NCBI RefSeq assembly: GCF_029094545.1
Contig: NZ_CP117835.1
Span: forward strand, 1,654,001 to 1,718,000
From: Alkalihalophilus pseudofirmus
GTDB lineage: Bacteria > Bacillota > Bacilli > Bacillales > Bacillaceae_D
Length of the DNA stretch: 64,000 bases
Reading direction: 5' to 3'
Shown here: positions 3,007-38,979 of the stretch, in pieces
Layout of the letters: each line of letters begins with the position of its first letter
How positions within the stretch are numbered: position 1 is the stretch's first letter
The notes under the pieces: generated by a model
What the model was told of the DNA's origin: nothing
What the model saw: the letters and a program-made list of their open reading frames with translations, nothing else
Databases searched by the model: none
Translations under genes and position numbers: made by a program

Positions 3007-3029
3007 GGCTTAGGACAGGAGGGGTGTAT

Positions 3030-3308
3030 ATGGATTACTTTGAAGCGATAGTAGGAGGATTAACAATTGAAGAATTAAGTTGTTTGGGTTTACTCCAAGA
3101 GGAGGACGCTAATGCACCATTTAAGGCAATACCTCAAAAGACACTAAGAGAGGAATTGAATTTAACCACCGCAAATTTCAGAAGGGTTATTTTGTCATTA
3201 GAAGCTAAGCAGCTTATAAAAGTCATGAGGGATAGAATGAAGCACAACATCTATATCACACATTACGGGGTTGACGCATTAACCCTTTCATTAGAAGGAG
3301 TTGAATAA
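3030..3308 (+). CDS. tubR: TubR-like partition DNA-binding protein
   Basis: A 92-residue protein with a winged-helix pattern: a recognition-helix-like stretch around residues 35-60 (LREELNLTTANFRRVILSLE) followed by a basic wing. Size, fold pattern and position directly before an FtsZ/tubulin-type GTPase match TubR of type III partition systems, which binds the centromere and recruits TubZ. The start is ATG 3030, behind GGAGGGG. The stop overlaps the ribosome site region of tubZ. The assignment leans on context, because TubR proteins diverge strongly in sequence. Confidence 0.72.
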   Translation: MDYFEAIVGGLTIEELSCLGLLQEEDANAPFKAIPQKTLREELNLTTANFRRVILSLEAKQLIKVMRDRMKHNIYITHYGVDALTLSLEGVE

Positions 3309-3309
3309 T

Positions 3310-4416
3310 ATGTATGGATTTATTGGCTTAGGTCAGGCAGGTAGTTCAATTTGTAACATTGCTTCGAAAATGAATTTTCCTTCTGTAGCAATCAACTACT
3401 CAGAAAAAGATTTACTGTCGTGTGTAAATATTGAAGAAGAAAACAAACTCTGCCTCATAGGTAGCGAAGGAGTAGGTAAAGATCGTCAGCAAGCTATTAA
3501 GCTTATGAATACAAACTGGGAGAGAGTAACGTCATTTATTGAAGAGAAATTCTCGCATCCTTCTATTGAGATTATCTTTATTGTCTATTCTACAGGAGGC
3601 GGGAGTGGGAGTGGAATCAGTTCATTAGTCATTGACCTGTTACAAAATAAAATGAATAAAGTGTTCGTTGCATGCCCTATCCTTCCTAGCTTAAATGAAG
3701 TTGCTACAAGTCAGCTCAACACAATAGAAGCTATGAGTGATTTATCTGGATTAGATATTGCAGTATTGTCAATTGATAATGAAAAAGGTAATGCAACAGA
3801 CAAAGGGGAGACATATCAGAAGATAAACTACAGATTCATCAACCAATTGAATCAGCTTCTTCATTACACTGAGCAGGAATCGACTATCTCCAATTTAGAT
3901 AAAAGAGACCTTTTAACGCTATTTAGTACACAGGGATTGATTAATATTAGCGAATTGAATCTTGTGGACTTAAATCATTCAGTTGTCGAGAATGAAAAAT
4001 GGGTTAATCAAGCCTTAATTAAATCGTGGGATGATCAAATCTATATTACTCCTGAGAAGAAGCGGCTAATTAGAATGGGGCTGATTGTGGATTGTCATAG
4101 CTCAGTTCTGAAAAGTTTAGAATTACAGCAGCTATACAATCAATTTGAATCAGGTGAGCCATTGGCATTGTATGAGGGCTATTACGAAACAGGTCAGAAT
4201 AAAATACTCACAATTTTGACTGGTCTTTCGTGGTGTGAGGCACGAATCCGCAAGATCGAAGAAAGGATTCAAACTCAAGAAGTTAAGCTAGGGAGCTTAT
4301 TTGAGGAAGAGATACGCTACACACCTACAATTTCTACTCAAAGATTCAAGCAGCCTGCACAACAAGAGAAGAAAAAACGCTCTGCATTAGATATTCTTAG
4401 CAAGTACAAACGTTGA
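3310..4416 (+). CDS. tubZ: TubZ-like tubulin/FtsZ-family GTPase (plasmid or phage partition)
   Basis: This 368-residue protein begins with a GFIGLGQAG nucleotide-binding loop. The tubulin signature near residues 94-103 reads STGGGSGSG, against the common GGGTG[TS]G. TubZ filaments treadmill and move plasmids bound through TubR. The C-terminus is basic (KKKRSALDILSKYKR), as expected for a tail that contacts TubR. ATG 3310 is preferred over an in-frame TTG at 3301 that overlaps the GAAGGAG ribosome site. Together with tubR it forms a two-gene operon. Phage tubulins such as PhuZ are an alternative family, but the adjacent tubR favours partition. Confidence 0.88.
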   Translation: MYGFIGLGQAGSSICNIASKMNFPSVAINYSEKDLLSCVNIEEENKLCLIGSEGVGKDRQQAIKLMNTNWERVTSFIEEKFSHPSIEIIFIVYSTGGGSGSGISSLVIDLLQNKMNKVFVACPILPSLNEVATSQLNTIEAMSDLSGLDIAVLSIDNEKGNATDKGETYQKINYRFINQLNQLLHYTEQESTISNLDKRDLLTLFSTQGLINISELNLVDLNHSVVENEKWVNQALIKSWDDQIYITPEKKRLIRMGLIVDCHSSVLKSLELQQLYNQFESGEPLALYEGYYETGQNKILTILTGLSWCEARIRKIEERIQTQEVKLGSLFEEEIRYTPTISTQRFKQPAQQEKKKRSALDILSKYKR

Positions 4417-8079: not shown

Positions 8080-10317
8080 ATGATAAAAAGAATACTAGAA
8101 AGCTTTCATGATTCAGATGAAGAGCGCTATCAGTATCAGGATTTCTTACTAAAAGATTTTGAAAGGGTTCTTGAAAACAATTATCTAGAACTCTCATATG
8201 TCACAGCACTATGGAAATTTACTCAGGATGAAAATAAATGCTATCTACACGCCCCTAACTTTTGGAAGAAACGAGGATATAAGCCTGTTACAAATGGGGT
8301 GTCAGTAAAGGCGAGTAGATGGTATCGTCTAGGGTTAATAAAAGATTCCTTTTATCCTATTGGAGTAGGTGAAGGATTCTCATTCATCTCATCTTTATTA
8401 GGTAATAAACATCTTCTTAGTGGCGATGATGAGATTATTTTGAAGATTAATCTTAAAAAACGTGTGGGTGGTTGGCGAAGTGAGGAATTAGAGAAGTATC
8501 AACACTTTCTAAATGGCAATGCTCTTGCTGTTGAAAATAAGACAGTGCGTAAGTTTGCACAGCTATTGAAGAGAGGAGAAGATGCCAATGATAATATCTA
8601 CACTAACTTAGAAGACATTGAACAGAAAATAATATCCGATCAGTTTCAGTTTGAATGTTTAATAGGCGTAACTAGTGAATCTAATGATCAATTAAAGACA
8701 TTGCTTAGCCTAATCAATAAATGTGTAAATGATTTAGCTGGACTGAATCGCTTTGATCTAGTTAGAGCAACCAATCATTCTGAGCCTTTCTATAATAAAG
8801 AATATCTATGTAAGCAGGAGATACTTTCTTTAACTAGTGTAAATGATTCATACGAAATTACAAATGACCTGATTCCTCAAGCTCCTGTTGTGAGTGGATC
8901 ATATGTTTCTGAATCAACAAGTGACTCTATATTTGAATTACTCCCCCGAATAGAAGTCACAAATGATTCTAATGAGCACTCTGACATTTCTAAAAGGATT
9001 ATAGCTGCTTTAAAAAGAGTGGGTGTAATAAAAGGGAAAGGAATGAAGCTAGATAGTGAATTAAGCGGATTAAGCTTTATTCGATGTCAGTATACAATAC
9101 CAGAAAACTTGGTGTTCACTAAAATATTTGAGAAGAATAAGGATTTGCGGGTGGCGTTAGGTGTACCATCTTTGACAATTGAACAGGGAGATAAGCCTGA
9201 TACAATTGCATTCTTAATACCAAAGGAGGATAGAAAACCGTTATACTTAGGCAATATTCTAAGCAGTCCAAGTAACTTATCTTCACTTTCTAAATTGGAT
9301 ATACCTTTTTTCATTGGTTTAGATCCATTAGGCGAACCAATCTTTATGTGCCTATCAGATATTAAACATTTGTTAGTTGCAGGTCAGACAGGAGGAGGAA
9401 AGTCTGTTTGGTTGAATCAAGCGATTCTTACTATGCTGTTAATGATGACACCAGAAGAGCTTGAGCTGTATCTAATTGATCCAAAGAAAGTAGAGTTTAG
9501 CCAATTCAAGCAGTTTGAGCAAGTGAAGATAGTTGAAACAGATGCTGAGAAATCAGTCTCTATCTTGGCTAATTTAATCAATATTATGGAAGAGAGATAT
9601 GAGTTATTATCTAATGCTAATGCTAAGTCATTGAAAGATTACAATGCCAAATCAAACAATAAATTACCTTATATTGTAGTTGTAGTAGATGAGTTTGCAG
9701 ATTTAAGGATGTCTAACAAGGTAGTAGTTGAACACATAGCCTCTTTAAGTCAGAAGGCTCGTGGAGCAGGTATCCATTTAATTATTGCTACTCAAAGACC
9801 TGACGTTAAGATAATTGATGGCTTCATCAAAGATAATCTTCCTTCTAAGATATGCTTTAGATTAGGTTCTAATAAAGCTTATTCTACCGTATTTGGAACG
9901 GGTATACCTTTTGAGTTGCTAGGTAAGGGACATGGAGCAATGAAAATAGAGGGTCAATTAAAGGAGTTTGAGCAATTTCAGAGTGCGGCTATATCACTTG
10001 ATAGCAAGGAAGAAGAAAAAGCTTATGAAAGAATAGCAAACTACTTGAAGCGAAATGGGCATAAGAAAGAATCAATAGTAGACACTGATGAATCAATAGA
10101 ACAAGAGAGCGATCTCGACAGGCTAAAGAAGATTATTGCCTCTACAGGTGAAACCAGAGTAACTACTTTACGCAAAGAGTTAGGTATACGTGGTGATAAG
10201 GTGCAAGAGTTAATGCAAGAGCTAGTAGTAGAAGGATGGCTGCATAAACACGAGTCACGCAACAAAGGATATGAGCTAATAGCAATAGATGAAGAACTAG
10301 ATAAATGGAGGGAGTGA
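8080..10317 (+). CDS. FtsK/SpoIIIE-family DNA translocase
   Basis: A 745-residue protein. The Walker A motif GQTGGGKS lies near residues 435-442 and Walker B IVVVVDEFADL near 532-542, followed by ARGAGIHLIIATQRP, the classical FtsK signature. The last ~70 residues form a winged helix like the FtsK gamma domain. The N-terminal 400 residues are not membrane-spanning, unlike chromosomal SpoIIIE. The protein probably moves double-stranded DNA through the adjacent membrane channel or into a virion. Position after the VirB6-like gene favours a coupling or transfer role in a large Bacillus plasmid. The 3' end is followed by a gap with a new promoter. Confidence 0.9.
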   Translation: MIKRILESFHDSDEERYQYQDFLLKDFERVLENNYLELSYVTALWKFTQDENKCYLHAPNFWKKRGYKPVTNGVSVKASRWYRLGLIKDSFYPIGVGEGFSFISSLLGNKHLLSGDDEIILKINLKKRVGGWRSEELEKYQHFLNGNALAVENKTVRKFAQLLKRGEDANDNIYTNLEDIEQKIISDQFQFECLIGVTSESNDQLKTLLSLINKCVNDLAGLNRFDLVRATNHSEPFYNKEYLCKQEILSLTSVNDSYEITNDLIPQAPVVSGSYVSESTSDSIFELLPRIEVTNDSNEHSDISKRIIAALKRVGVIKGKGMKLDSELSGLSFIRCQYTIPENLVFTKIFEKNKDLRVALGVPSLTIEQGDKPDTIAFLIPKEDRKPLYLGNILSSPSNLSSLSKLDIPFFIGLDPLGEPIFMCLSDIKHLLVAGQTGGGKSVWLNQAILTMLLMMTPEELELYLIDPKKVEFSQFKQFEQVKIVETDAEKSVSILANLINIMEERYELLSNANAKSLKDYNAKSNNKLPYIVVVVDEFADLRMSNKVVVEHIASLSQKARGAGIHLIIATQRPDVKIIDGFIKDNLPSKICFRLGSNKAYSTVFGTGIPFELLGKGHGAMKIEGQLKEFEQFQSAAISLDSKEEEKAYERIANYLKRNGHKKESIVDTDESIEQESDLDRLKKIIASTGETRVTTLRKELGIRGDKVQELMQELVVEGWLHKHESRNKGYELIAIDEELDKWRE

Positions 10318-10370
10318 CACATACATAGTCGCTTCCTTCTCCAATTAATAAAATAAATTAAAATAAATAG

Positions 10371-10399
10371 TTGACGTATTAACTAGTTTATATTATTCT
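10371..10399 (+). promoter_or_regulatory. Probable sigma-A promoter
   Basis: TTGACG (10371-10376), a 17-base spacer and TATTCT (10394-10399). It sits in the gap before the XRE gene and so probably drives the XRE-helicase-primase operon. Confidence 0.55.
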
Positions 10400-10431
10400 A
10401 TTATTAACTTATTAATAAAGGAGGAGAGAAG

Positions 10432-10623
10432 TTGAGAGGGAAACAACTTAAAATTTTACGCATTCAGCATGACATAAAGGCAAAAGACATTGCATTGGCA
10501 CTAGGGGTGAGCAAAGCGTACATAAGCATCCTAGAGAACGAAGTGCAGCAAATACCTAAACATATCTACGAGAAGTGGACTACATACATAGAAACTGTCA
10601 GCAATAACATTACAATAAATTAA
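10432..10623 (+). CDS. Small XRE-family regulator, 63 aa
   Basis: TTG start with GGAGGAG 5-8 bases upstream. Residues 5-45 form a Cro/C1 helix-turn-helix (LKILRIQHDIKAKDIALALG then SKAYISILENEVQ). First gene after a clear promoter and directly before the helicase, so probably the autoregulator of the replication operon. Confidence 0.78.
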   Translation: MRGKQLKILRIQHDIKAKDIALALGVSKAYISILENEVQQIPKHIYEKWTTYIETVSNNITIN

Positions 10624-10643
10624 AATGATAAGGGGTTGTTAGT

Positions 10644-12842
10644 TTGAACGAGACTATTAGTTTAAGAGTAGAGGTAGCGAAAGAGATTAGATACTTCGAT
10701 AACGGATTTGGTATTTATAGCTTTTATCCATTAAGCAATCATAGCTCTGTAAAGATCAATAAGTCATACGGGAACTTCTCGGTAAAAGGAAATACATTTC
10801 AATTGGCTGAAGGAATGGAGTATGAGATTGAAATCACACCAACTGAATTTCACCCTCAGTATGGTCAGGGATATGAATTTGTATCAGTAAAGCAAGACAG
10901 ACCAACATCTGCACAAGAGCAGCAAGTGTATATAAAGACACTTCTAACGGATACTCAGGCAAGAGCTATCATTGATAAGTACCCTAATGATAAGATTCTC
11001 GATTTAATGAGAGAAGATAAGTTTGATTACAGTGACATTAAAGGAATTGGAAAGAAAACGTATGTGAAAATCAAAAAGCACCTTCTAGACAATCTTGATA
11101 TTCAAGAAGCTATTATTGAGCTTAAAGATTTAAAGATTAGCTTCCCTGCTATGAAGAAACTAATTGATCACTACGGTTCAGCAGAAATGGCTGTACAGAA
11201 GATTAAAGAGAATATCTACAACCTATGTAGCGTATCTAACTTTGGCTTTAAGACAGTGGATAAGTTTGCTATGAATAGAGGCGACAGTAAAGAAAGTAGA
11301 AATAGAATTCTTGCTGGCTTAACTTTTCTACTCGCACAAGAGGAATCAAACGGTCATTGTTGGATGAGTAAGTTTACATTAATGGAGAAAGCAAGAGAAC
11401 TGTTAGAGATTTCAAGAACGATTATCGAGGACAATATTGATAGCTTACCTGAAAAAGCTTTTTATGTAGAAGGTGATACTGTAGCAAGAAGGGTTGCTTA
11501 CAATACTGAGAAAAATATCATGAAGAAGTTAATTGAATTGCGAGATGCTGAAAGTAAGATTGATGTGAAGTATGATGAGGAAAAAGTAAAAGAATTAGAA
11601 AAAGAACAGGGATTTGAATACTCAGATGAGCAACGAGAAGCAATTAAGTTGGCTATGGAGAATAATGTTTTAGTTATTAATGGTAAGGCAGGTGCAGGTA
11701 AGACAACAGTGCTTAAAGGTATTGTAAAGTTACTTGATCAGTATAATCATGCTGCTTGTGCATTATCTGGAAAAGCAAGTAAAGTTCTTTCAGAAAATGG
11801 ATTACAGGGTAGTACGATACATAGATTATTGGGAATTGAATCAGATGGCTTTAAATACAATGAGGATAATCCTCTTCCTAAGCATATCTTGTTTATTGAT
11901 GAAACGAGTATGATTAATATCTATCTCTTCTTTGACATTCTCAGAGCAGTAGAGAATGGATATAAGCTTATTATCGTAGGAGATGATGGTCAGCTCAGTT
12001 CAATTGGCTCAGGTGCTGTATTAAGGGATTTACTTGCTTCTGACTTACTTCCTACGATTGAGTTAACTAAAGTACAACGTCAAGCAGAGAAGTCAGGCAT
12101 CCTTTCTATTGCTAATAAGATTCGTGAGGGCGAACAGATTATCAAAAGTGGTGACTATGGTAAAAAGGTGTTTGGTGAACTGAAGGATCTGCTGGTCATT
12201 CCAATGGAACATAAGGAGCAAATTATTGATTTGACGATTGATATTGCAAAGAGGAAATTTATCAATAAAGACTTGCATGAGTTTCAATTCATTACTGGAA
12301 GGAAGCAAGGTGGAGATATAAGCGTATACGAGCTTAATAACGCCTTACAGAAGGTCTTTAATGAGAAGAAGGGTAAACCTATTGAGAAGAATAAATACTC
12401 GTTCTATGAGGGCGACAAGGTTATCCAATGTGGAAATAACTATGATGTAGATGGAACAGGTGTAAATGTCTTTAATGGAACAATTGGAATCATTGAGAAG
12501 ATTGAACATGGAGTAACTGATATTGATAAAAAGAAGAAGAACTTTATCCATATTCAGTTTGAAGGAATTGAAGAACCAGTTGTTTACACTGAGGATGATA
12601 TGATTATGATTGAGTTGGCTTATGCGATATCAACACATCGTAGTCAAGGTAGTACCATTCCATACGTCATCTTTGTGTTTGACTATGCTTCATATATGCT
12701 ACTGAGCAAACAGTTCTGTTATACGGGGATTACAAGAGCTAAGAAGGGTGCTGTAATGATTTGTGAGTTAAGTGCCTTACGCCATGCAATTAAAACTGAT
12801 GTAAGTGATATGAGAAGAACGTTCTTGAGTGAGTTGTTATAA
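10644..12842 (+). CDS. RecD2-like ATP-dependent DNA helicase
   Basis: The 732-residue superfamily 1 helicase shows an N-terminal region with a helix-hairpin-helix (IKGIGKKTYVKIKKHLL, ~132-148), Walker A GKAGAGKTT (~347-355), DETSMI (motif II), GDDGQLSSIGSG (motif III) and C-terminal THRSQGST and TGITRAKKG. RecD2 unwinds DNA 5'-3' and is common in Firmicutes and their plasmids. The TTG start has an AGGGG site. It lies just before the primase gene, so it probably serves replication of the element. Confidence 0.9.
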   Translation: MNETISLRVEVAKEIRYFDNGFGIYSFYPLSNHSSVKINKSYGNFSVKGNTFQLAEGMEYEIEITPTEFHPQYGQGYEFVSVKQDRPTSAQEQQVYIKTLLTDTQARAIIDKYPNDKILDLMREDKFDYSDIKGIGKKTYVKIKKHLLDNLDIQEAIIELKDLKISFPAMKKLIDHYGSAEMAVQKIKENIYNLCSVSNFGFKTVDKFAMNRGDSKESRNRILAGLTFLLAQEESNGHCWMSKFTLMEKARELLEISRTIIEDNIDSLPEKAFYVEGDTVARRVAYNTEKNIMKKLIELRDAESKIDVKYDEEKVKELEKEQGFEYSDEQREAIKLAMENNVLVINGKAGAGKTTVLKGIVKLLDQYNHAACALSGKASKVLSENGLQGSTIHRLLGIESDGFKYNEDNPLPKHILFIDETSMINIYLFFDILRAVENGYKLIIVGDDGQLSSIGSGAVLRDLLASDLLPTIELTKVQRQAEKSGILSIANKIREGEQIIKSGDYGKKVFGELKDLLVIPMEHKEQIIDLTIDIAKRKFINKDLHEFQFITGRKQGGDISVYELNNALQKVFNEKKGKPIEKNKYSFYEGDKVIQCGNNYDVDGTGVNVFNGTIGIIEKIEHGVTDIDKKKKNFIHIQFEGIEEPVVYTEDDMIMIELAYAISTHRSQGSTIPYVIFVFDYASYMLLSKQFCYTGITRAKKGAVMICELSALRHAIKTDVSDMRRTFLSELL

Positions 12843-12878
12843 TTAATTAAAATTATTTTATAATTAAGGGTGATTGTT

Positions 12879-14720
12879 TTGAAACTTATGCTAGACACTA
12901 AGGAATACAAAAGCAAGCCAGTATCAGCAGGTGAGGTTACGAGTAGGGTTGTAAGATACCCTACTGACCTTTCTCCTGAATCTTTGGCTAATGAAATAGT
13001 TAAAGGTAAAAGTTTCGTAGCTGGATATTTAAATAATAAAGTGAACGGTAAGATTAAGAGACGTGTTGACTGTTGGACTTCGCAGCAAATTATTTGTATG
13101 GATTTTGATGATAACTACAGAATTGAAGAAGCCATTAATGACTTTAAGGATATTGGAATGTTTATCTATAAGACTTTTAATCACACTGATGAACACCATA
13201 AGATTAGAGTTGTATTGGCTTTAGATAAACCTGTAACTAATTACAATCAATTTTATAGACTGATGAATGAATTACATAAACTCTATCCTCAATGTGATCA
13301 AAGTTGTAAAGATGGTAGTAGACTATTCTACGGAGGTAAAGAGTGTATTATTTTAAATTATAATAATAGAATTAAACTTGAAGATTACATTGATACCTCT
13401 ATTGATTATTCTTCTATTAAAACAACCGCTAATACTACTAAAAGTAACAATACTAATACTAAACAAGTCAATATTACAAGCAGTCAAGTACAGGTGGTTA
13501 CTAGTGTTTTAAATAATATACTCCCTTGTAACCACCACAACTTGAATATGATAAAACTCATTAAAAATAAGGATATTGAAGCATTACAGAGAATTTTAAG
13601 TCCAAGTCCAGTTGTATTTTACACTTACACAGAAGTATATGATTATATTAAGCAGCAAGATTTGAGATTACTGTTGGGATTAGGGGAGGGTAGCTGCTCT
13701 TGTTTATTTCATGAAGATAGCAACCCTAGTGCTAACATCTTCTATGGTGATGAAGTGCAAGGGTACATATATAAATGCTTTAGTGAGAAATGTACATTTA
13801 AAACAGGCACAATAAGAAAAGTCATTGAAAGGATTCTTGGCTGCAATAAAGTAGAAGGTTTGAATTTCTTGATGAAACTCTATAGAATTGAATTGAAGGA
13901 AACTGATTGGCAGAAAGAACAAAGAAGAATCATTGATGAAAACATTCGATACTTAATGAGCATTGATTTACAAGAAGAATATCCAGAGTTATACATAAGA
14001 ATTAAAAGATATTTAGGTGATCTGACCATATTGCATAATATTGCAAAAGAGAATCTTCCTGCTGAACACTATAGCGATGAGAAAATTGAGTACTTGTTTT
14101 ATGCTAGTGTGAGACATATAGCAAACATTAAAGGCATTAAAAATATAAAAAGAGTTAATGATATTGTATCTTTGTTTGCTTATTTAGGATTGATATTTAA
14201 GAAAACGAAAGATGATATGCCACAGAGAATGATTGAAGATGTATCGAAAGTAATGAGTGATAAAAAATCTGATAAGTTAACGTTCTTTGCTTTACCGTCA
14301 TACTCACATGAGATTATGACATTTGGTGAGGAAAAAGCTGTAGAGTTCAAAGAAAAACATTTCTCGATGAAAGGATGGTCTAGAGAGATGCTTCTAAGAT
14401 CACTAGGTGATGAAGAGGCAAATAGAGTATATCCATTGCAAAAAGGTAAGCAGCTATCTAAACAGAGTGAGTGCAATGTGAGTAAATTGGAGACGTATTG
14501 TTTAGACTTACTTAATGAAAATGGATGGATTATTGAAAGTGAAATCGTTAATAATGTTGTTCTGAGCTTTGGTGGTAAAGAGTATAAGAAAATACAAATT
14601 AAGAAAATGCTTGGGGAGTTTATTGATAAGTACGATTTAAAAAGAAGTAGATTAAATAAGAAGATAAAAAATCTTCTCAATGTAGAGTATGAGGGTTCAC
14701 CATTTATTATATATAAGTAA
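12879..14720 (+). CDS. Replication primase: AEP-type core plus CHC2-like zinc ribbon
   Basis: The 613-residue protein has CMDFDDN near residues 73-79, the h-D-h-D metal site of archaeo-eukaryotic primases. An HHKIRVVLAL segment (~105-115) fits the s-x-H/R strand, and a later acidic position lies near DGSRLFYGG. A DnaG-like zinc ribbon follows around residues 272-310 (CSCLFHED, then YKCFSEKCTFKTG). The C-terminal half is helical and basic and may bind DNA or the origin. Known primase-polymerases of plasmids and phages start replication with this arrangement. The TTG start at 12879 is favoured by AAGGGTG. A strong terminator follows. Confidence 0.75.
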   Translation: MKLMLDTKEYKSKPVSAGEVTSRVVRYPTDLSPESLANEIVKGKSFVAGYLNNKVNGKIKRRVDCWTSQQIICMDFDDNYRIEEAINDFKDIGMFIYKTFNHTDEHHKIRVVLALDKPVTNYNQFYRLMNELHKLYPQCDQSCKDGSRLFYGGKECIILNYNNRIKLEDYIDTSIDYSSIKTTANTTKSNNTNTKQVNITSSQVQVVTSVLNNILPCNHHNLNMIKLIKNKDIEALQRILSPSPVVFYTYTEVYDYIKQQDLRLLLGLGEGSCSCLFHEDSNPSANIFYGDEVQGYIYKCFSEKCTFKTGTIRKVIERILGCNKVEGLNFLMKLYRIELKETDWQKEQRRIIDENIRYLMSIDLQEEYPELYIRIKRYLGDLTILHNIAKENLPAEHYSDEKIEYLFYASVRHIANIKGIKNIKRVNDIVSLFAYLGLIFKKTKDDMPQRMIEDVSKVMSDKKSDKLTFFALPSYSHEIMTFGEEKAVEFKEKHFSMKGWSREMLLRSLGDEEANRVYPLQKGKQLSKQSECNVSKLETYCLDLLNENGWIIESEIVNNVVLSFGGKEYKKIQIKKMLGEFIDKYDLKRSRLNKKIKNLLNVEYEGSPFIIYK

Positions 14721-14749
14721 ATTAAAATTATTAATTCAATACATACCTT

Positions 14750-14777
14750 AGAGACGTGTAACTAGCGTCTCTTTTTT
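14750..14777 (+). terminator. Rho-independent terminator after primase
   Basis: AGAGACG and CGTCTCT form a perfect 7-bp stem with a 9-base loop, followed by a run of T. It ends the 10.4-14.7 kb operon. Confidence 0.9.
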
Positions 14778-15356
14778 GTGTTCTATTTTATATAGGGTAG
14801 TAGTGTATGTGAGTAGGGATACGTTTAAATTGTAAAATAAGCCCCCTCTATATGGATAGCTGCTTATATATATGGATGATGTGTTAGACGTAGAGGTATG
14901 AGTAAAGTGATTGATCTGTGAGTAGTGTGCCAGTCGAAAGTGTGTGATCAGATGAGTGAGTTGAGTGATTAATAGTAGATACGATAAGGGTTATGTGAGG
15001 ATTAAAGTGTGAGTAGAGTGAGATATATGAAGAGAGGAAAACAGGTGTCGTATTTGAGGGTGTAAAGTGAGTAAAGAGTAGATAAGATGGGAGATATGTG
15101 AGGATTAGGAGGGTAAGATGATCGAAAAGAGTAGATGGGATAAGGGGTTGAGTAGGATGAGAGTGGAAAAAGGGGTGATTTAGGGTAAAGTGGGGAGAGA
15201 GAATAGTGAGGGGAATGGGGATATTTTCGAGAGAAAGTCGAGAGGGGAATTATCGAGTGGAAAATTAAAGTGAGTGGACGGATAAATGTGTTTGGCACAT
15301 AGAAAACCTAGTGTCAAGTCCATTTAACGTTAATTATGCCCCTCCTATATAAATTT

Positions 15357-15445
15357 ATCACTATATAATTAGAGTTATGTAGTGATATAACCTTCTTTAT
15401 TATTTTATTTTATTAAGACTATATAATTTTGTATTATGTAGTGAT
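15357..15445 (+). repeat. Two direct copies of an ACTATATAAT...TTATGTAGT hairpin
   Basis: Copy 1 (15357-15386) and copy 2 (15417-15445) each form an imperfect palindrome with ATCACTATATAA-type and TTATGTAGTGAT-type arms around a short loop. A third copy, in inverse orientation and 27/29 identical to copy 2, lies at 33248-33276. Possibly binding or recombination sites. Confidence 0.65.
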
Positions 15446-15511
15446 GAATCCGACCAATTGAATCAAAATGAAAAATTTAAATGAACGAAAAAAGATAGAA
15501 TTATAATTGCA

Positions 15512-15561
15512 GCCGAGACCACTATACCACTGTACTAATGAACTAGTACACTGATATCGGC
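15512..15561. other. Stem-loop at the strand-composition switch
   Basis: Outer arms GCCGA (15512-15516) and TCGGC (15557-15561) enclose a perfect inner hairpin, TGTACTA-N6-TAGTACA (15531-15550). It lies exactly between the C-poor and G-poor arms. It is not followed by a T run, so it is unlikely to be a simple terminator. It could be an origin hairpin. Confidence 0.5.
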
Positions 15562-16413
15562 AAGGGTAACAGGCGGTTAAAGTTATAAGACTTACCTTTC
15601 TTCTCCTCACTCCTTCCTTACACTCACCAACTCACACTCCTTCTTTCCTTATCTCCTCTTATCTCATCCTCACTTGTCACCAAACCAAACCACACAGCCC
15701 AAACCAACTCATTCCCTCACACTATCCTATCTCCTCACACTATCCTATCTCCTCACACTCACACTATCCACCCTTACCTCACACTATCCACTGTCCATCT
15801 ATCCATCCATCCATTCCTTATCCATTGTCCCAACAAACTCAACTCAACTCACATCATCCTCACACTATTATACATCTATCATATATCCACTCACTTCCCA
15901 CAACTCTGATCAATCCATCATCCAAACCATTCACAAACTCACCAACCAAACGAACCCGAACAAACCAAACCGAACTACACACTCTATCACATACTAATAT
16001 ACATACTCATATATATTACTCTTACACTATCCATCACTTGCTTATCACTTGTCACACTTTAACCTCTAACATATCACACTCTTATACCTTCTTATCTCCT
16101 TATCTTATCCTTATATCCATCTATCCTTATACTTCCCTTATACATCTATTACCTTTATATATCCTCTTATACTATACTTACTATCTATTACTATACATAC
16201 TCTTCACACTTACCATACTATCCACTAAGCAACCTTACAAGGCTATACAGAGCCATACACATTCTATACAACTCTAACACCAAACAATAAATAAACCTTT
16301 ACAATAATTAAAAATTAATATACAATAGATAATGATACACATATACTATCATATCTCTTCACTATGTATTACGTATCACACTACATATCTACATATCAAA
16401 AGGAGGAAATACA

Positions 16414-16608
16414 ATGCAAAAGAATAAATTTTATTTCTGTTATTCACCAGTACAACACAAGTATTTACACAATAAGAAAGGACTAGCATACATATGCTCT
16501 GCTTTACATGAAACAACTCATAATAAGTTTTGGTTATATGAAAACAATGATACATTATCAAAAGCATTAGAGGATTATAGAGAGCATATGTCATTTCTTA
16601 ATAATTAG
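16414..16608 (+). CDS. Hypothetical protein, 64 aa
   Basis: ATG behind a strong AAGGAGG. The protein is rich in aromatic residues, His and Asn. First gene right of the asymmetric tract; not recognised. Confidence 0.65.
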   Translation: MQKNKFYFCYSPVQHKYLHNKKGLAYICSALHETTHNKFWLYENNDTLSKALEDYREHMSFLNN

Positions 16609-16673
16609 TTATCTAGCTTAACTTATACTTGTATCTGTTTACTAATGAACGTTATTTAAAGGAGTTGTATACC

Positions 16674-17207
16674 ATTAATAATATTGATAAATCTATTCTT
16701 ACTGCAATACAGATGCACACACAAGAAGAGGCTGCAAAGTCTGTTATTGATACGCTTGATAGTATGGGAGTAAATACCGAGAATTTAGGCGTAAGCTTAT
16801 ACATACAAGATAAATCAAAGGTTAAATGGAAAACTAAAACTCACTTTGTAAAAATCTTTTCAGGGGAGTTGAAACGCTTGAGACGTAATAATATTATTGA
16901 CTATGAATCATTGGGCTTACTGACAGAATTAAGCGCATATATGGACTTTCAAGGCTGTTATTTAAGAAATGATGATGGCTCTTATATGTCCCAAAAAGAT
17001 ATAATTAATCTCACTGGTTGGGCTAGATCAAAGGTAAGTAACGTCCTTACGGACTTAATTAAAAAAGAATTGTTGCTTTTTACGACCCAAAAAGAAGATA
17101 AGAGAAAGAAAAGATATTTCTTGAATCCGAATCTTTTTTATATTGGTAATGAGATACATAAAGATATTAAAAATTATTACACTCATAAAGATAAAGAAGA
17201 GTTATAA
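16674..17207 (+). CDS. RepL-like winged-helix protein, candidate replication initiator (AUU start)
   Basis: A perfect AAAGGAG at 16658-16664 is followed 9 bases later by ATT. No ATG/GTG/TTG fits, and an in-frame TTG at 16629 has no site. The product is about 177 residues. Around residues 95-160 it has a winged helix ending in RYFLNPNLFYIG, which resembles the wing and NP-x-L-[IF] signature of Firmicute RepL proteins and related single-strand plasmid initiators. It stands next to the origin-like tract, which supports an initiator or copy-control role. A generic winged-helix regulator is the alternative. Confidence 0.55.
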   Translation: MNNIDKSILTAIQMHTQEEAAKSVIDTLDSMGVNTENLGVSLYIQDKSKVKWKTKTHFVKIFSGELKRLRRNNIIDYESLGLLTELSAYMDFQGCYLRNDDGSYMSQKDIINLTGWARSKVSNVLTDLIKKELLLFTTQKEDKRKKRYFLNPNLFYIGNEIHKDIKNYYTHKDKEEL

Positions 17208-17371
17208 TATTATCGTATTGTTTAAACTGTATAGATACTATAGATAACTTTTTTGCTGAAATGAGCTAAAAACCTAGTTATAATAAGCCTGAATGTGAAA
17301 ATAATATGTCCTCAAATTAGTACATATCTATAAATGAGTGAATAAAAATCCCTTTATAATCCATACCCTTA

Positions 17372-17407
17372 AAAATAATATGTCCTTAGATTAGGACATA
17401 TTATTTT
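17372..17407. terminator. Strong AT-rich stem-loop, probable bidirectional terminator
   Basis: AAAATAATATGTCCT (17372-17386) pairs perfectly with 17393-17407 across a 6-base loop; A-run and T-run flanks fit termination in both directions. A degenerate copy of the same hairpin lies at about 17298-17325. The 17208-17590 gap contains otherwise only the promoter listed next. Confidence 0.75.
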
Positions 17408-17519
17408 ATCTTCCTATTCTCTTCAATCCCTTATAAATCAACCTTTCCACTAACATTCCACTATTCACACTAAGCAACCAACACAAATAAATAATCATTA
17501 AAGATGATTAAAATAATAT

Positions 17520-17548
17520 TTGTATTTATTGTTCTAATGTGTTAGAAT
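17520..17548 (+). promoter_or_regulatory. Promoter with dyad operator, site 1
   Basis: TTGTAT, a 17-base spacer and TAGAAT. The dyad TTCTAA-TGTG-TTAGAA (17532-17547) covers the -10 box. It drives the zinc-ribbon gene at 17591. One of six matching sites. Confidence 0.7.
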
Positions 17549-17590
17549 TACTTATATAATAATAAAAACAAATTCTTGGAGGTTTTCAAT

Positions 17591-18202
17591 ATGACTATTT
17601 GTACTCGTTGCGGTTCTTCTCTAAAAAATCCGGTAAACTTTGAAGGTAAAGCATATGGCTCTGATTGTGTGCAAGTTGTAAGCGGCTTAAAACGATGGGA
17701 AGTAGATTCAGCAGGCAACGATCTAGACAGTTATATCATCAAGAAAGCAGCAAGAATCAAAAAAGCTCAAGATGAACACAAAGCAGCAACTGAAAAAGCG
17801 GCATATTACACTGATAAAAATAATTGGTTAATGAGTGTTCTTGAAAGCATGGCAGATCCTTCAAAAGTAAATTATAATACGTTTGCGGCTGATATCTTGC
17901 GCTTACTATATACTAGAGAAGTTAAAGAGCTATCAGAAAAACAACTTTTAATTTTAGAGGATATGTTTGCAAGTGGTCAAAGTGGAATCGAAGAAGGAAA
18001 GGTAAGGTTAAGTTTTCTATTAGCTTGCGAACTATATGATATTAATGATAAAGCAGTACAAGAAGAAGCAAAAATTTTCATCTTATCGTATGCAACCTTA
18101 CAAGAATTAAAAGGACTATGCAAAGAAAATAAAATCAAAGGATATAGCAAGTTGAAGCGTGAAGAACTTGAAGAGTTATTAGTAAATCATATTGAATTAT
18201 AA
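17591..18202 (+). CDS. Zinc-ribbon protein with C-terminal SAP/HeH-like domain, 203 aa
   Basis: The N-terminus reads CTRCGSSL with a later GSDC, a CxxC...C zinc-binding pattern. The middle is helical. The last ~40 residues (LKGLCKENKIKGYSKLKREELEELL) match the helix-extended-loop-helix pattern of SAP or Rho-N-like nucleic-acid binding domains. Good AGGTTTTC-type site before ATG 17591. Its own operator-promoter lies upstream and a terminator directly after, so it is a single-gene unit. Function unknown; nucleic-acid binding is likely. Confidence 0.65.
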   Translation: MTICTRCGSSLKNPVNFEGKAYGSDCVQVVSGLKRWEVDSAGNDLDSYIIKKAARIKKAQDEHKAATEKAAYYTDKNNWLMSVLESMADPSKVNYNTFAADILRLLYTREVKELSEKQLLILEDMFASGQSGIEEGKVRLSFLLACELYDINDKAVQEEAKIFILSYATLQELKGLCKENKIKGYSKLKREELEELLVNHIEL

Positions 18203-33247: not shown

Positions 33248-33278
33248 ATCACTCTATAATACAAAATTATATAGTCAT
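33248..33278 (-). repeat. Inverted third copy of the origin-region hairpin
   Basis: The reverse complement of 33248-33276 is 27/29 identical to 15417-15445 (GACTATATAATTTTGTATTA core). It is 18 kb away and just left of the recombinase operon. Confidence 0.7.
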
Positions 33279-33279
33279 A

Positions 33280-33316
33280 AGGCTTATTTTTCGAAAAAAT
33301 CAACGAAAATAAGCCT
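33280..33316. terminator. Stem-loop, probable terminator
   Basis: AGGCTTATTTT (33280-33290) pairs with AAAATAAGCCT (33306-33316), extended by a TCG/CGA inner pair, with T-rich sequence on the right. Ends the transcript of the XRE gene. Confidence 0.65.
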
Positions 33317-33665: not shown

Positions 33666-33738
33666 TACATATCTATTGCAAAATGGCTTACCTAAAGGTA
33701 TAATAAAGATAATAAAAATTAATCAGGGAGTGATCGAG

Positions 33739-34743
33739 ATGGAATTGGCATACATTCACAAAGTTAACGTTGAAGAAATTATTAACAAGTTTATAGAAAC
33801 AAAAATTGATAAGCCTACTACACGTAATAGTTATCGTACTCACATTAGAGACTTCTATCTGATCACAATGTCTAAGCAGCTTAATGAATTGATTGAAAAG
33901 GATTTAATTATCAGCCATAACATTATTGATACGTTTATGGTTGAAGGTAAGAGGAAGTGGAGCAATAACACAATCAATACTAAGATGGCAGCAATCAAAA
34001 GCTTCTATAAGTATCTTGAATCAAGGGTAAATGATTTCATGCTTTCTGTTGAAATTGACTTCTCTATATTAAAAGGGTCAGACAGATTAAAGACACAAAA
34101 AATTAACTACGGTAAATTAACTTATGATGAAGTAGTTCAAATGTCTGAAATTGTATTTGAGACTGAAAGAAATAAAGCTAAGAACAAAAGTGCATTTTTA
34201 TTGTTTGCTCTAGATACTGGCTTGCGTAAAGAGGAAATTCAAAAAGTACAGTGGAGAGATTTGAGAGTTATTGATAATGATCAAATCTATTTTCAAGTAG
34301 TTGGTAAAGGCGATGTAATTCATCAAAGAATCATTAAGAAAGAATTATATTCAATCATCTTAAATGCGAAGGAGGATGATAAGTATTTATTCCCTTTATC
34401 AAATACAGAAATTCAATATATGTTTGATCGTTTAAGAGCTTATATGAATATTCCAGAGGAAAGAAATATTGTATTCCATAGTATTCGGAAAGCATCGGTT
34501 ACAGAGTACTACTATTTAACTTTAGATCCACTTGCTACTCAAAAGTTTGCTGGGCATCAAAGTTTTGATACAACTACAAAATACATTCAAGAGAAGGATT
34601 TTGGGAATATTGGTGTAATGAGTATGAGAGAAACCGTTAACAGCGATGACCTAAAATCGCTGGATAAAAATGAACTTTTGGAATTAATTGATAATAACAA
34701 TGAAATTAAAATTCGTTTAATTAATGAACTTAGAAATAAATAA
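33739..34743 (+). CDS. Tyrosine recombinase/integrase (YopP-like position)
   Basis: ATG 33739 behind GGGAGTG; the upstream frame has no site. The 334-residue protein has an N-terminal SAM-like core-binding domain (NSYRTHIRDFY, STIKSFYKYL-type) and a full catalytic set: R163 in TGLRKEE, H247 and R250 in HSIRK, H273 in AGHQS and Y282 in TTKYIQ. It is therefore probably active. In SPbeta the gene pair yopP-yopQ precedes the repressor gene yopR, and the same order (recombinase, DGQHR protein, inactive recombinase) is seen here. It could integrate the element, resolve dimers, or regulate. Confidence 0.82.
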   Translation: MELAYIHKVNVEEIINKFIETKIDKPTTRNSYRTHIRDFYLITMSKQLNELIEKDLIISHNIIDTFMVEGKRKWSNNTINTKMAAIKSFYKYLESRVNDFMLSVEIDFSILKGSDRLKTQKINYGKLTYDEVVQMSEIVFETERNKAKNKSAFLLFALDTGLRKEEIQKVQWRDLRVIDNDQIYFQVVGKGDVIHQRIIKKELYSIILNAKEDDKYLFPLSNTEIQYMFDRLRAYMNIPEERNIVFHSIRKASVTEYYYLTLDPLATQKFAGHQSFDTTTKYIQEKDFGNIGVMSMRETVNSDDLKSLDKNELLELIDNNNEIKIRLINELRNK

Positions 34744-36155: not shown

Positions 36156-37118
36156 ATGTATAATGAAGCAATTAAAAAAAGGTATTTAGAAACTATTTCT
36201 GAAACAAGCTATGTTGCTTATGAATCCAGATTAAAAGCTTTATCTAATGATGAAAAAAGATATAATAAAGATATTTATGATTTTACACGTAAGGAAATAA
36301 TTGACACTCTATACGCTTTAGAATTGCCATCAATGTCTTCTGCTAGAGCTTACCTTTCAACAGTTAAAAGCTATATTGACTGGGCAATTGCAAATGGATA
36401 TGTTAATAGCAACATTAATCCAGTAGCTAGAGTATATACTAATGTATTAGATGAAATAATTGATCATACTAAAAAGATGTTTATATCAGAGGAAGAGCTT
36501 ACAGAAATTGAAGAAAAAGACTTGAATAATAATTATCAAGATCGAGTAATTTCAAGATTAATTTTTGAAGGTGTGTATGGTACTAAATTTAGCGAGCTTG
36601 CTGGCATTAAATTAAAAGATATTAATACCGATACAAATGAAATCACTATTAGAGAAGGTAAATTTCCACGTACTGTGCAAGTATCAGAACGATTAGTAAA
36701 CTTTTTATTAAAAGCAGCGTCAGAAGATATGTATATTCTTGCAAATGGACTAGCTGAATCTAGAGCAAAAGAAAAGAAGCTAATACAAAATGACTATGTT
36801 ATTAGAGCAGTGGATAATGGAAGAATTAAGGATCACAATGCACCAGTATCTTATATGACTTTATATACTAAATTAAGACACATTAAAGAAATAACAAATA
36901 AACCTTACTTAACACCAACTAATATTAGAAGAAGTGGAATGCTATATATGGGTTACTTGCTTTATAAAGAAAATGGGAAGTTAGATAAAGAAGAATATAA
37001 TCTTATAGCTGAAAAATTCGGAACGGGTAAAATAGGGGTTAACAGAGACATAAATAATATAGCAGGTATCAAAGAATTTGTTACGATTGATAATATAAAA
37101 TCTTATTATGAAATTTAA
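36156..37118 (+). CDS. yopR: Recombinase-fold protein lacking catalytic residues, YopR-type repressor candidate
   Basis: The 320-residue protein keeps the two-domain tyrosine-recombinase layout: a core-binding region at ~10-95 and a C-terminal domain with FEGVYGTKFSELAGIKLKDI. The catalytic positions are replaced: K for the first Arg, N256 in TNIRR for the His, an FGTG segment for GH, and no nucleophilic Tyr in context. SPbeta YopR is a master repressor with exactly this degenerate recombinase fold, about the same length, following yopP-yopQ. I infer that this is the lysogeny or maintenance repressor. Confidence 0.68.
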   Translation: MYNEAIKKRYLETISETSYVAYESRLKALSNDEKRYNKDIYDFTRKEIIDTLYALELPSMSSARAYLSTVKSYIDWAIANGYVNSNINPVARVYTNVLDEIIDHTKKMFISEEELTEIEEKDLNNNYQDRVISRLIFEGVYGTKFSELAGIKLKDINTDTNEITIREGKFPRTVQVSERLVNFLLKAASEDMYILANGLAESRAKEKKLIQNDYVIRAVDNGRIKDHNAPVSYMTLYTKLRHIKEITNKPYLTPTNIRRSGMLYMGYLLYKENGKLDKEEYNLIAEKFGTGKIGVNRDINNIAGIKEFVTIDNIKSYYEI

Positions 37119-37812: not shown

Positions 37813-38979
37813 ATGAAAGACTTTAAAAGGTTGCTCAGTCTAAAGTTAGAGACTGGACAAGTTACTATGAGTGAAATAGCTCGTGCAGCAGGATATAAGA
37901 ACATCACACCACTCAGTAAATATTTGAATGATGAGAAAAGAGAATTTGACTGTATTACTAGGATTATAAAAATTTCAAATTATCTTTTTTCAAACGATTT
38001 AACAAAAGAAAAGAGCATTATAGAAGCTTATTCGGAAACTGTCGATCCCAATAAAGAGATATCCAGACAAACTCTTGAATATTTGAGCTATCATTCCCTC
38101 ATAAGTTACAGAAACAGTTTGCTTGAGAAGATGTACTCTTGCAATAATAAAGAAAGTAAAGAGATGGCTACTATTTACAAATATGAAAAACTGTGGGATA
38201 ATACATGTGACAAGCTTGAAATGATTGAAGATGAATGTGTAAAATCTGATAACAACATTATTTACAAAAAATATTTAAGAATGTGCTGTTTTTATTTAGA
38301 AGGACACAGCTCGATGGTTGAGTACATGCACAGAAGAATAGTGGCTAATCTAAACAGACTTGGTGATTCTTATATAAAAGAAAGCTATCAATTAAGAATC
38401 TTTAAGCTACTAGCAGCTTTTAAACTAGGAATAAACAAGCCTGAAGAGTGTGAAGAAATGGCGTTGTTTGTAATCGGTAAATCGAGAGATAGAAACACTG
38501 CAGCAAGCATGTATCAGCTAATAGGCATGTCTTATCTTTATCGAGACTATGCTAAAGGTAGACTTTATCTTGAGAAAGCTCATGACATCTTTCATGAAAT
38601 TGAAGAGGTAAATGGAGATAATAGTATCTATAACTCACTTAGTTTACATGATCACTACTGGGGAAAAGAAGAGAACTCCGAAAGGTTTATGGATCGGATA
38701 AGCTCCTGTTCCAATAAAGCGCTAATAACATCCTCAGCGATAGGTAATATAGCTTCCTATACTTCCTTAATGCAAAATACAGATAAGGCGAGTATGAATA
38801 ACAGAGATTTGGCTTTTTACTATTACAGCTTAGGATATCTATCAGATGATGAGGAGCTGCTCTGGAAAAGCATTAAGTTATTCAAGTCAATAGATGATAG
38901 TTACTACGTAAAGCTTCCAATTGCAAAATTAGATATTATGGGTACTTGTAAGCAGACTCTAGAAGTTGCTAGCCTATAA
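37813..38979 (+). CDS. aimR: AimR-like arbitrium peptide receptor/transcription regulator
   Basis: The 388-residue protein has an N-terminal helix-turn-helix (~18-55, MSEIARAAGYKNITPLSKYLND) followed by TPR-like helical repeats to the end. Several segments match AimR by eye: a KNxxPLxxxLN stretch, an ALxY/TLEYLS segment, AxSMYQLIGMSYLYRDY (AimR has TFSYITIGNSYIFSDY), LAFYYYSLGYLSDDEELLWKSIKLFK and a final LEVxSL. SPbeta-group AimR is about 380-390 residues, binds DNA as a dimer, and is switched by a short secreted peptide encoded next door. ATG behind GGAGG. Confidence 0.85.
   Translation: MKDFKRLLSLKLETGQVTMSEIARAAGYKNITPLSKYLNDEKREFDCITRIIKISNYLFSNDLTKEKSIIEAYSETVDPNKEISRQTLEYLSYHSLISYRNSLLEKMYSCNNKESKEMATIYKYEKLWDNTCDKLEMIEDECVKSDNNIIYKKYLRMCCFYLEGHSSMVEYMHRRIVANLNRLGDSYIKESYQLRIFKLLAAFKLGINKPEECEEMALFVIGKSRDRNTAASMYQLIGMSYLYRDYAKGRLYLEKAHDIFHEIEEVNGDNSIYNSLSLHDHYWGKEENSERFMDRISSCSNKALITSSAIGNIASYTSLMQNTDKASMNNRDLAFYYYSLGYLSDDEELLWKSIKLFKSIDDSYYVKLPIAKLDIMGTCKQTLEVASL

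Follow-up and report, generated by a model that had tools for sequence, protein, structure and literature searches.

A mirror-skewed non-coding tract in an SPβ-like prophage of Alkalihalophilus pseudofirmus is probably a phage genome-end site

Introduction

A non-coding tract of Alkalihalophilus pseudofirmus DNA, almost free of C in its left arm and almost free of G in its right arm, is probably the genome-end (packaging) site of an SPβ-like phage, present as a single copy in the prophage, with a repeat of its core at the virion ends. The tract lies in a stretch of 64,000 nucleotides (hereafter the window; positions 1,654,001 to 1,718,000 of NZ_CP117835.1), which belongs to a 4.08-Mb contig. 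An earlier note, made from the sequence alone, had drawn attention to it and considered its centre as a point from which two replication forks might depart.

SPβ has been known as a phage for more than 50 years and is a home of arbitrium signalling. According to a 2021 review, its replication had yet to be investigated and its packaging is still to be elucidated. Packaging has been described as probably of the headful/pac type on the basis of unpublished read data, with a candidate pac site in the interval that corresponds to the tract. In the open-licence literature searched, no description of terminal repeats or skewed arms in SPβ-type phages was found, and the accessible part of PMC9756591 contains no mention of 'terminal repeat'.

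Composition and structure of the tract

The tract consists of two arms of opposite composition and a core of ∼300 nt between them, which carries a C-run and, at three sites, inverted repeats. Its features are as follows.

14750..14772, + strand: hairpin of terminator type that follows the primase-like gene and immediately precedes the tract (one found, against a mean of 0.7 in shuffles)
14850..15294: left arm, C-poor and G-rich on the + strand; predicted to be subterminal at the right virion end (from the skew and from its position, homologous to the right end of phage Perkons)
15295..15589, + strand: core; predicted direct terminal repeat of 295 nt, with cuts before GCACATAG and after TTATAAG (by-eye letter match to the ends of the Perkons repeat and the openings of BUCT083 and BUCT082)
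15339..15342, + strand: run of four C (CCCC), position 45 in the predicted repeat (C5–C7 in relatives; from the letters)
15358..15385: 11-6-11 palindrome TCACTATATAA-TTAGAG-TTATGTAGTGA (inverted-repeat search and core table)
15418..15442: second palindrome, spacer 5 (inverted-repeat search)
15528..15553: third palindrome CACTGTACTA-ATGAAC-TAGTACACTG (inverted-repeat search)
15590..16300: right arm, G-poor and C-rich on the + strand; predicted to be subterminal at the left virion end (from the skew and the Perkons comparison)

On the + strand, the left arm has only 0–2 C per 50 nt at 14950-15249 and the right arm 0–3 G per 50 nt at 15600-16299. The extreme 200-nt GC skews of the whole window, +0.93 (at 15051) and −0.957 (at 15591), flank 15.3–15.6 kb, one on each side (14.9–15.3 kb and 15.6–16.3 kb). 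We defined a mirror score as the skew of the left 400 nt minus that of the right 400 nt; the tract scored 1.75, whereas 200 dinucleotide-shuffled versions of the window gave at most 0.56 and the best value elsewhere in the window was 0.75. The asymmetry reported in the earlier note is thus real, and its sign (G-rich left, C-rich right) is, as had been stated there, opposite to that of a bacterial origin. The ORFs inside the tract look low in complexity, as judged by appearance. No Rfam family was found at gathering score in 14600-17600. Taken as a whole, the tract is a real non-coding element that probably acts in cis.

The hairpins noted earlier at the skew switch were recovered as inverted repeats at 15358, 15418 and 15528 (four hits, two of which are the same palindrome), whereas 300 shuffled cores gave 0.13 hits on average and never more than 3. 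The tract is nevertheless not the symmetric object that it had appeared to be, because its core has a single orientation. The polarity of the arms had been linked, on the condition that forks leave the centre, to G-free lagging-strand templates that would be unable to fold. We found that both strands of both arms fold weakly (−0.2 to −0.95 kcal/mol per 100 nt, against a background of −5.1), and folding is therefore not the reason for the mirror polarity.

Prophage setting and neighboring genes

Judged by its neighboring genes, the tract is part of a prophage of the SPβ-like kind. The features that define this setting are as follows.

3024..4416, + strand: TubR-like and TubZ-like genes, whose relatives adjoin the tract in two plasmids (profile matches, relatives)
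10644..14720, + strand: RecD2-like helicase gene (10644) and primase-like gene (12870), left of the tract (profile matches, relatives)
33248..33280, − strand: palindrome akin to the core palindromes and in inverted orientation; lies upstream of the yopP-yopQ-mrpR-like genes (sequence comparison)
33676..34743, + strand: YopP-like tyrosine recombinase (PF00589; relatives)
36156..37118, + strand: MrpR-like repressor, an SPβ-type marker, with N and C domains (PF22822, 5.6e-19; PF22823, 6.6e-23)
37813..38979, + strand: AimR-like arbitrium regulator (PF22871, 4.3e-45)

Further left of the tract are a YonO-like RNA polymerase (25%, near 1780) and an HU-like YonN (63%, at −1682, just outside the window). 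Megablast searches of 8080-18200 against phages and of 12000-18200 against plasmids gave no match, including to SPβ and phi3T, so the prophage appears to be a distant relative of SPβ. In the stretches read, 41 of 54 host genes to the left of the prophage are on the + strand and 44 of 50 to its right are on the − strand, so that the prophage is probably near the chromosome terminus, where SPβ relatives have also been located (2021 review).

The earlier note had placed the tract between a helicase/primase operon and a RepL-like gene. The operon does adjoin the tract on the left; the primase-like gene has no Pfam match and owes its name to its place and its relatives. The RepL assignment did not hold: the gene at 16629-17207 was not recovered by the RepL profile (PF05732) at E≤10 and gave only weak winged-helix/MarR-type matches.

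Several side observations concern these genes. In two plasmids, relatives of the TubR/TubZ-like pair immediately adjoin the left side of the tract, and the pair has no match in SPβ or phi3T. An FtsK/SpoIIIE-like translocase (8080-10317) has matches in 184 phage records and in none of the other locally compared genomes. In addition, SPβ YopP (NC_001884, 78691-79767) reads HSFK where YopP of the window (33676-34743) has HSIR, as aligned by eye; a catalytic arginine of this recombinase may have been lost in SPβ.

Conservation of the tract in relatives

Tracts of this kind are present in SPβ-like phages from several host families, in which the composition is kept and the sequence of the arms is not. 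In a first scan of 12 relatives, a G-to-C switch with a score of at least 0.79 was found in seven: phi6255 of Mammaliicoccus (1.74), a Staphylococcus SPβ-like record (1.45), phi3T (1.10), B. velezensis plaBV1 (1.08), a B. pumilus plasmid (0.99), SPβ (0.82), in which the tract is the yonP-yonR gap, and P. larvae pPLP3 (0.79). Scores for E3, Perkons, Sundance, KKP3916 and Efs 1-1-1 were at most 0.71; it should be noted that the scan was linear, with tracts spanning record ends (Perkons, KKP3916, E3 and Sundance) invisible to it, and that E3, KKP3916, plaBV1 and the B. pumilus plasmid were scanned up to their last 131 to 4,561 bases.

MrpR loci were examined in the same way. Among four further chromosomal loci, one (G257) has a tract (0.79) with a perfect palindrome, and the other three (G139, G189 and G269, the last two on short stretches) scored at most 0.69. 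Three of 18 later loci scored 1.14–1.69 and one 0.81; the remaining 14 scored at most 0.64, with no tract within 35 kb upstream. These 18 correspond to 20 loci minus two on short contigs (G566 and G727), with one MrpR copy per genome and with G282, G215, G363 and G771 left out.

The conserved 20-mer was present at 69 loci in viral contigs, 56 of which scored at least 0.8. Of 63 stretches found by the palindrome pattern only, 61 were without a mirror tract, the other two carrying the 20-mer with one difference (counts from a recount of all 63, 34 of which had been scored on one strand in a first pass).

The earlier note had also called for a comparison of composition and sequence in related elements. 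In 38 less redundant tracts, one of which (L267) is an element without arms, right-arm blocks had a mean pairwise identity of 48–52% and a G content of 4–10%, so that composition is indeed conserved without sequence. Differences between close relatives preserved the compositional bias, with C/T 351 and A/G 172 in the right arm, C/T 105 and A/G 218 in the left arm and C/T 199 and A/G 253 in the core; no sequence entered more than two pairs per segment, and six mirror-less loci were left out. The B. subtilis group is over-represented in this set and in a set of 58 tracts (one without a palindrome by the pattern used), because both were drawn from one 20-mer.

An element of 40–43 kb with the tract core and without arms was observed at six loci (L243, L242, L251, L265, L267 and L275), and four of its six source genomes also have a full-tract contig, as judged by contig name. 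Four contigs with this element had no MrpR match. The element might be a satellite, although genes resembling YonO, primase and AimR are present in two copies (G398 and G400).

Layout of the core

A common layout was found in 12 of 13 tabulated cores: a C-run of 4–7, then 12–27 nt, then an 11-6-11 palindrome with ATAA-N6-TTAT inside, whose arms match at 6–11 of 11 positions and whose letters differ by lineage. ATAA and TTA-like inner letters belonged to the search pattern of this table, in which the Staphylococcus and P. larvae cores gave no row. In the thirteenth core (G499), C6 is accompanied by the 20-mer with one difference and by a palindrome whose inner letters, read by eye, are different.

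We also considered an MrpR operator at the tract centre and rejected it. A repeated element of SPβ, derived from five upstream regions named as MrpR peaks in the accessible part of PMC10516654 and taken as SPBRE, sits at 64138-64155, ∼460 nt left of the central palindrome; the centre of the SPβ tract is therefore another site than SPBRE.

Terminal repeats of linear phage records

The strongest evidence for a genome end came from the ends of phage records, although record ends are the depositors' choice. Searching with the plaBV1 tract matched 24 phage records. Two of them, the B. subtilis phage records BUCT083 (marked circular) and BUCT082 (linear), begin inside a plaBV1-like tract; of the other 22, 21 carry the tract internally and one short record ends within it at a different point. 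Eight records were examined for exact direct terminal repeats, which were present in Perkons (264 nt), KKP3916 (308 nt), Sundance (323 nt) and 2S-4 (127 nt) and absent from E3, vB_BcoS-136, BUCT083 and BUCT082. The repeat of 2S-4 is probably an assembly overlap and hence an artefact; it has neither C-run nor palindrome, and its subterminal skews are opposite in sign.

The other three repeats contain core elements. A C-run is located at position 49 in Perkons, 37 in KKP3916 and 48 in Sundance, on the other strand in the last two. The Perkons repeat has a palindrome at 69 (8 of 11) and an A/T-rich part, and that of Sundance has the palindrome CGTTCACAGAA-TTCTAG-TTATGTGAAAA at 70, 22 nt past the start of the C-run; further 8-of-11 palindromes are present in both. 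No palindrome at 8 of 11 or better was found in the KKP3916 repeat, and by the criteria used every core element was present in Perkons alone.

The repeat of Perkons starts at GCTTAGGG and ends at GTAAG^AC. BUCT083 opens at GTGTGGAAATGGAAGT^GCTATGGG (cut ^GCTA) and BUCT082, in reverse, at ATCGAAG^AC; by homology, these two openings correspond to where the Perkons repeat starts and ends. Cut-to-cut distances were 249–282 nt in 47 of 58 tracts of the B. subtilis group, and the other eleven had no match to the right cut. We set the cut sites of the window by eye on letters shared with Perkons, BUCT083 and BUCT082; by this comparison we infer that 15295-15589 is the terminal repeat of the window's own prophage.

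Subterminal skews of the + strand were measured in 300-nt steps inward from the repeat or record end. They were −0.09 and −0.29 on the left and +0.69 and +0.34 on the right in Perkons, −0.18 and +0.08 against +0.61 and +0.12 in KKP3916, and −0.35 and −0.51 against +0.45 and 0.0 in E3, which opens in a mirrored region. Sundance gave −0.40 and −0.35 on the left and −0.04 and −0.12 on the right, and vB_BcoS-136, which has neither repeat nor mirror, was negative at both ends. Some of these values weaken the reading as a genome end: the left end of KKP3916 is only −0.18/+0.08 and its repeat has no palindrome, and Sundance is without one arm (−0.04). E3, which has no exact repeat, vB_BcoS-136, the 21 records with an internal tract and the 14 later MrpR loci at which none was found also count against this reading.

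These data also bear on the headful view in print, in which a single cut at a pac site in the core would start unidirectional packaging with no defined repeat. The published candidate pac site does lie in this interval. However, three exact terminal repeats of different length are at odds with a headful start, and so is the coincidence of the ends of the Perkons repeat with both openings of BUCT083 and BUCT082. We thus regard a headful start as unlikely.

Alternative functions of the tract

It is similarly improbable, in our view, that the tract is a lytic or plasmid replication origin, with a palindromic or iteron-bearing core, an A/T-rich part and G-free outward strands. Several features would fit such an origin: the tract is located where late and early genes diverge, it adjoins TubRZ in two plasmids, ATCGTAAAA repeats occur in tracts of the B. 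subtilis group, and TubZR loci are known plasmid minireplicons according to the accessible part of PMC4219350. However, three close TubZ relatives in other genomes had no tract within flanks of at most 1.5 kb, and TubZ was rejected as a predictor of the tract. Support from DnaA boxes was limited to one lineage: they were concentrated in four Staphylococcus-type right arms (4 exact, 12 within one mismatch), whereas the other 10 right arms had 0 exact and 1 near box, and the window tract had none at up to one mismatch on its outward strands and in its centre. Position lends the origin some support, as the whole-genome skew minimum was within 12.5 kb of the tract in the eight genomes computed; gene direction alone would also give this. 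The G skew at third codon positions of the + strand, with genes from a simple ORF caller, showed no clear negative-to-positive switch at the tract in six genomes: SPβ, phi3T and plaBV1 had positive values both left and right of it, the window went from about zero (left) to positive (right), phi6255 from positive to about zero, and the Staphylococcus record from about zero to negative. This result, together with the presence of core elements in the terminal repeats of linear phage records, speaks against the centre with two departing forks considered in the earlier note. It is possible that an origin lies near the genome end. As a separate observation, the right arm of phi6255 (PV389083) starts with a group of DnaA boxes at 79919-80028, three of them exact and several near.

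Much less probable is a recombination site of the Xer/dif type whose arms would steer a translocase. A dif site has 11-6-11 arms with ATAA-N6-TTAT, a geometry shared by the window palindrome; the arms are G-rich in the inward direction, and YopP of the window prophage keeps its integrase motifs (by eye). On the other hand, the recognition word of SpoIIIE was absent from the 15 arms tested, with one copy seen by eye in the left arm of SPβ, which is outside these 15, and mosaic breaks were located elsewhere than at the palindrome. Arms guided by host SpoIIIE and site-specific recombination at the palindrome both appeared unlikely on these grounds. Equally remote is a bidirectional transcription insulator in which G-free, C-rich outward RNAs would be loaded by Rho: the outward strand is C-rich, G-free and unstructured, but CC was depleted to 0.76 of expected, although TC was slightly enriched (1.12) and Rho favours YC, and promoter-like sites were not in excess (10 found against 11.9 expected).

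Proposed mechanism and comparison with known systems

If the tract is the genome-end site, a terminase would act at the core and each packaged linear genome would end in a direct repeat of it, giving the order repeat, right arm, early genes ... late genes, left arm, repeat. Recognition would probably depend on the layout, that is, the cut, ∼45 nt, the C-run, 12–27 nt and the palindrome. At both virion ends the 3′-ending strand would then be G-rich and C-free, and resection of the 5′ ends after injection would leave 3′ tails that hardly fold and hardly pair with each other. The calculated mean pairing of two such tails, for the window tract alone, was −4.3 kcal/mol for the real arms, −21.9 for unmirrored arms and −9.6 for random sequence. 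The mirror would be needed to avoid pairing, since arms of equal polarity pair at −21.9 rather than −4.3. As the repeats would be the only complementary part of the tails, the genome could circularise by annealing there.

SPβ and phi3T share with the window a homologous core (20-mer, C-run and palindrome), arms and the same gene junction in the yonP-yonR interval or its equivalent; their arms are shorter and weaker (0.82 and 1.10), and in print the interval is regarded as pac/headful and not as a terminal repeat. Psychrobacillus phage Perkons resembles the window in its terminal repeat with C-run and palindrome and in its G-rich right end, whereas its left-end arm is weaker and its sequence is otherwise dissimilar. 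Fixed ends with a direct repeat of a few hundred bp are also typical of T7-type phages, which would thus be like the proposed tract ends, although hosts and enzymes differ; to our knowledge, mirrored C-free/G-free flanks are not known in T7-type phages. In telomeres, the G-rich strand runs 5′ to 3′ towards each end. The likeness of the tract to telomeres is in composition alone, as it has neither telomeric repeats nor telomerase.

Significance

A tentative generalization is that SPβ-like phages might have fixed ends with a repeat of 250–320 bp, and that hundreds of bases inside each end might be selected so that the 3′-ending strand is almost C-free; such ends would be telomere-like without special proteins, with resected ends meeting only through the repeat. 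For a phage group whose packaging has been described as probably headful, the tract supplies exact, testable cut sites, and an odd skew would become a marker for the ends of a widespread group of phages. The finding also cautions that an extreme local skew switch in origin-like surroundings can be a genome end. Finally, it suggests how linear DNA ends may avoid self-pairing through a simple design of their sequence.
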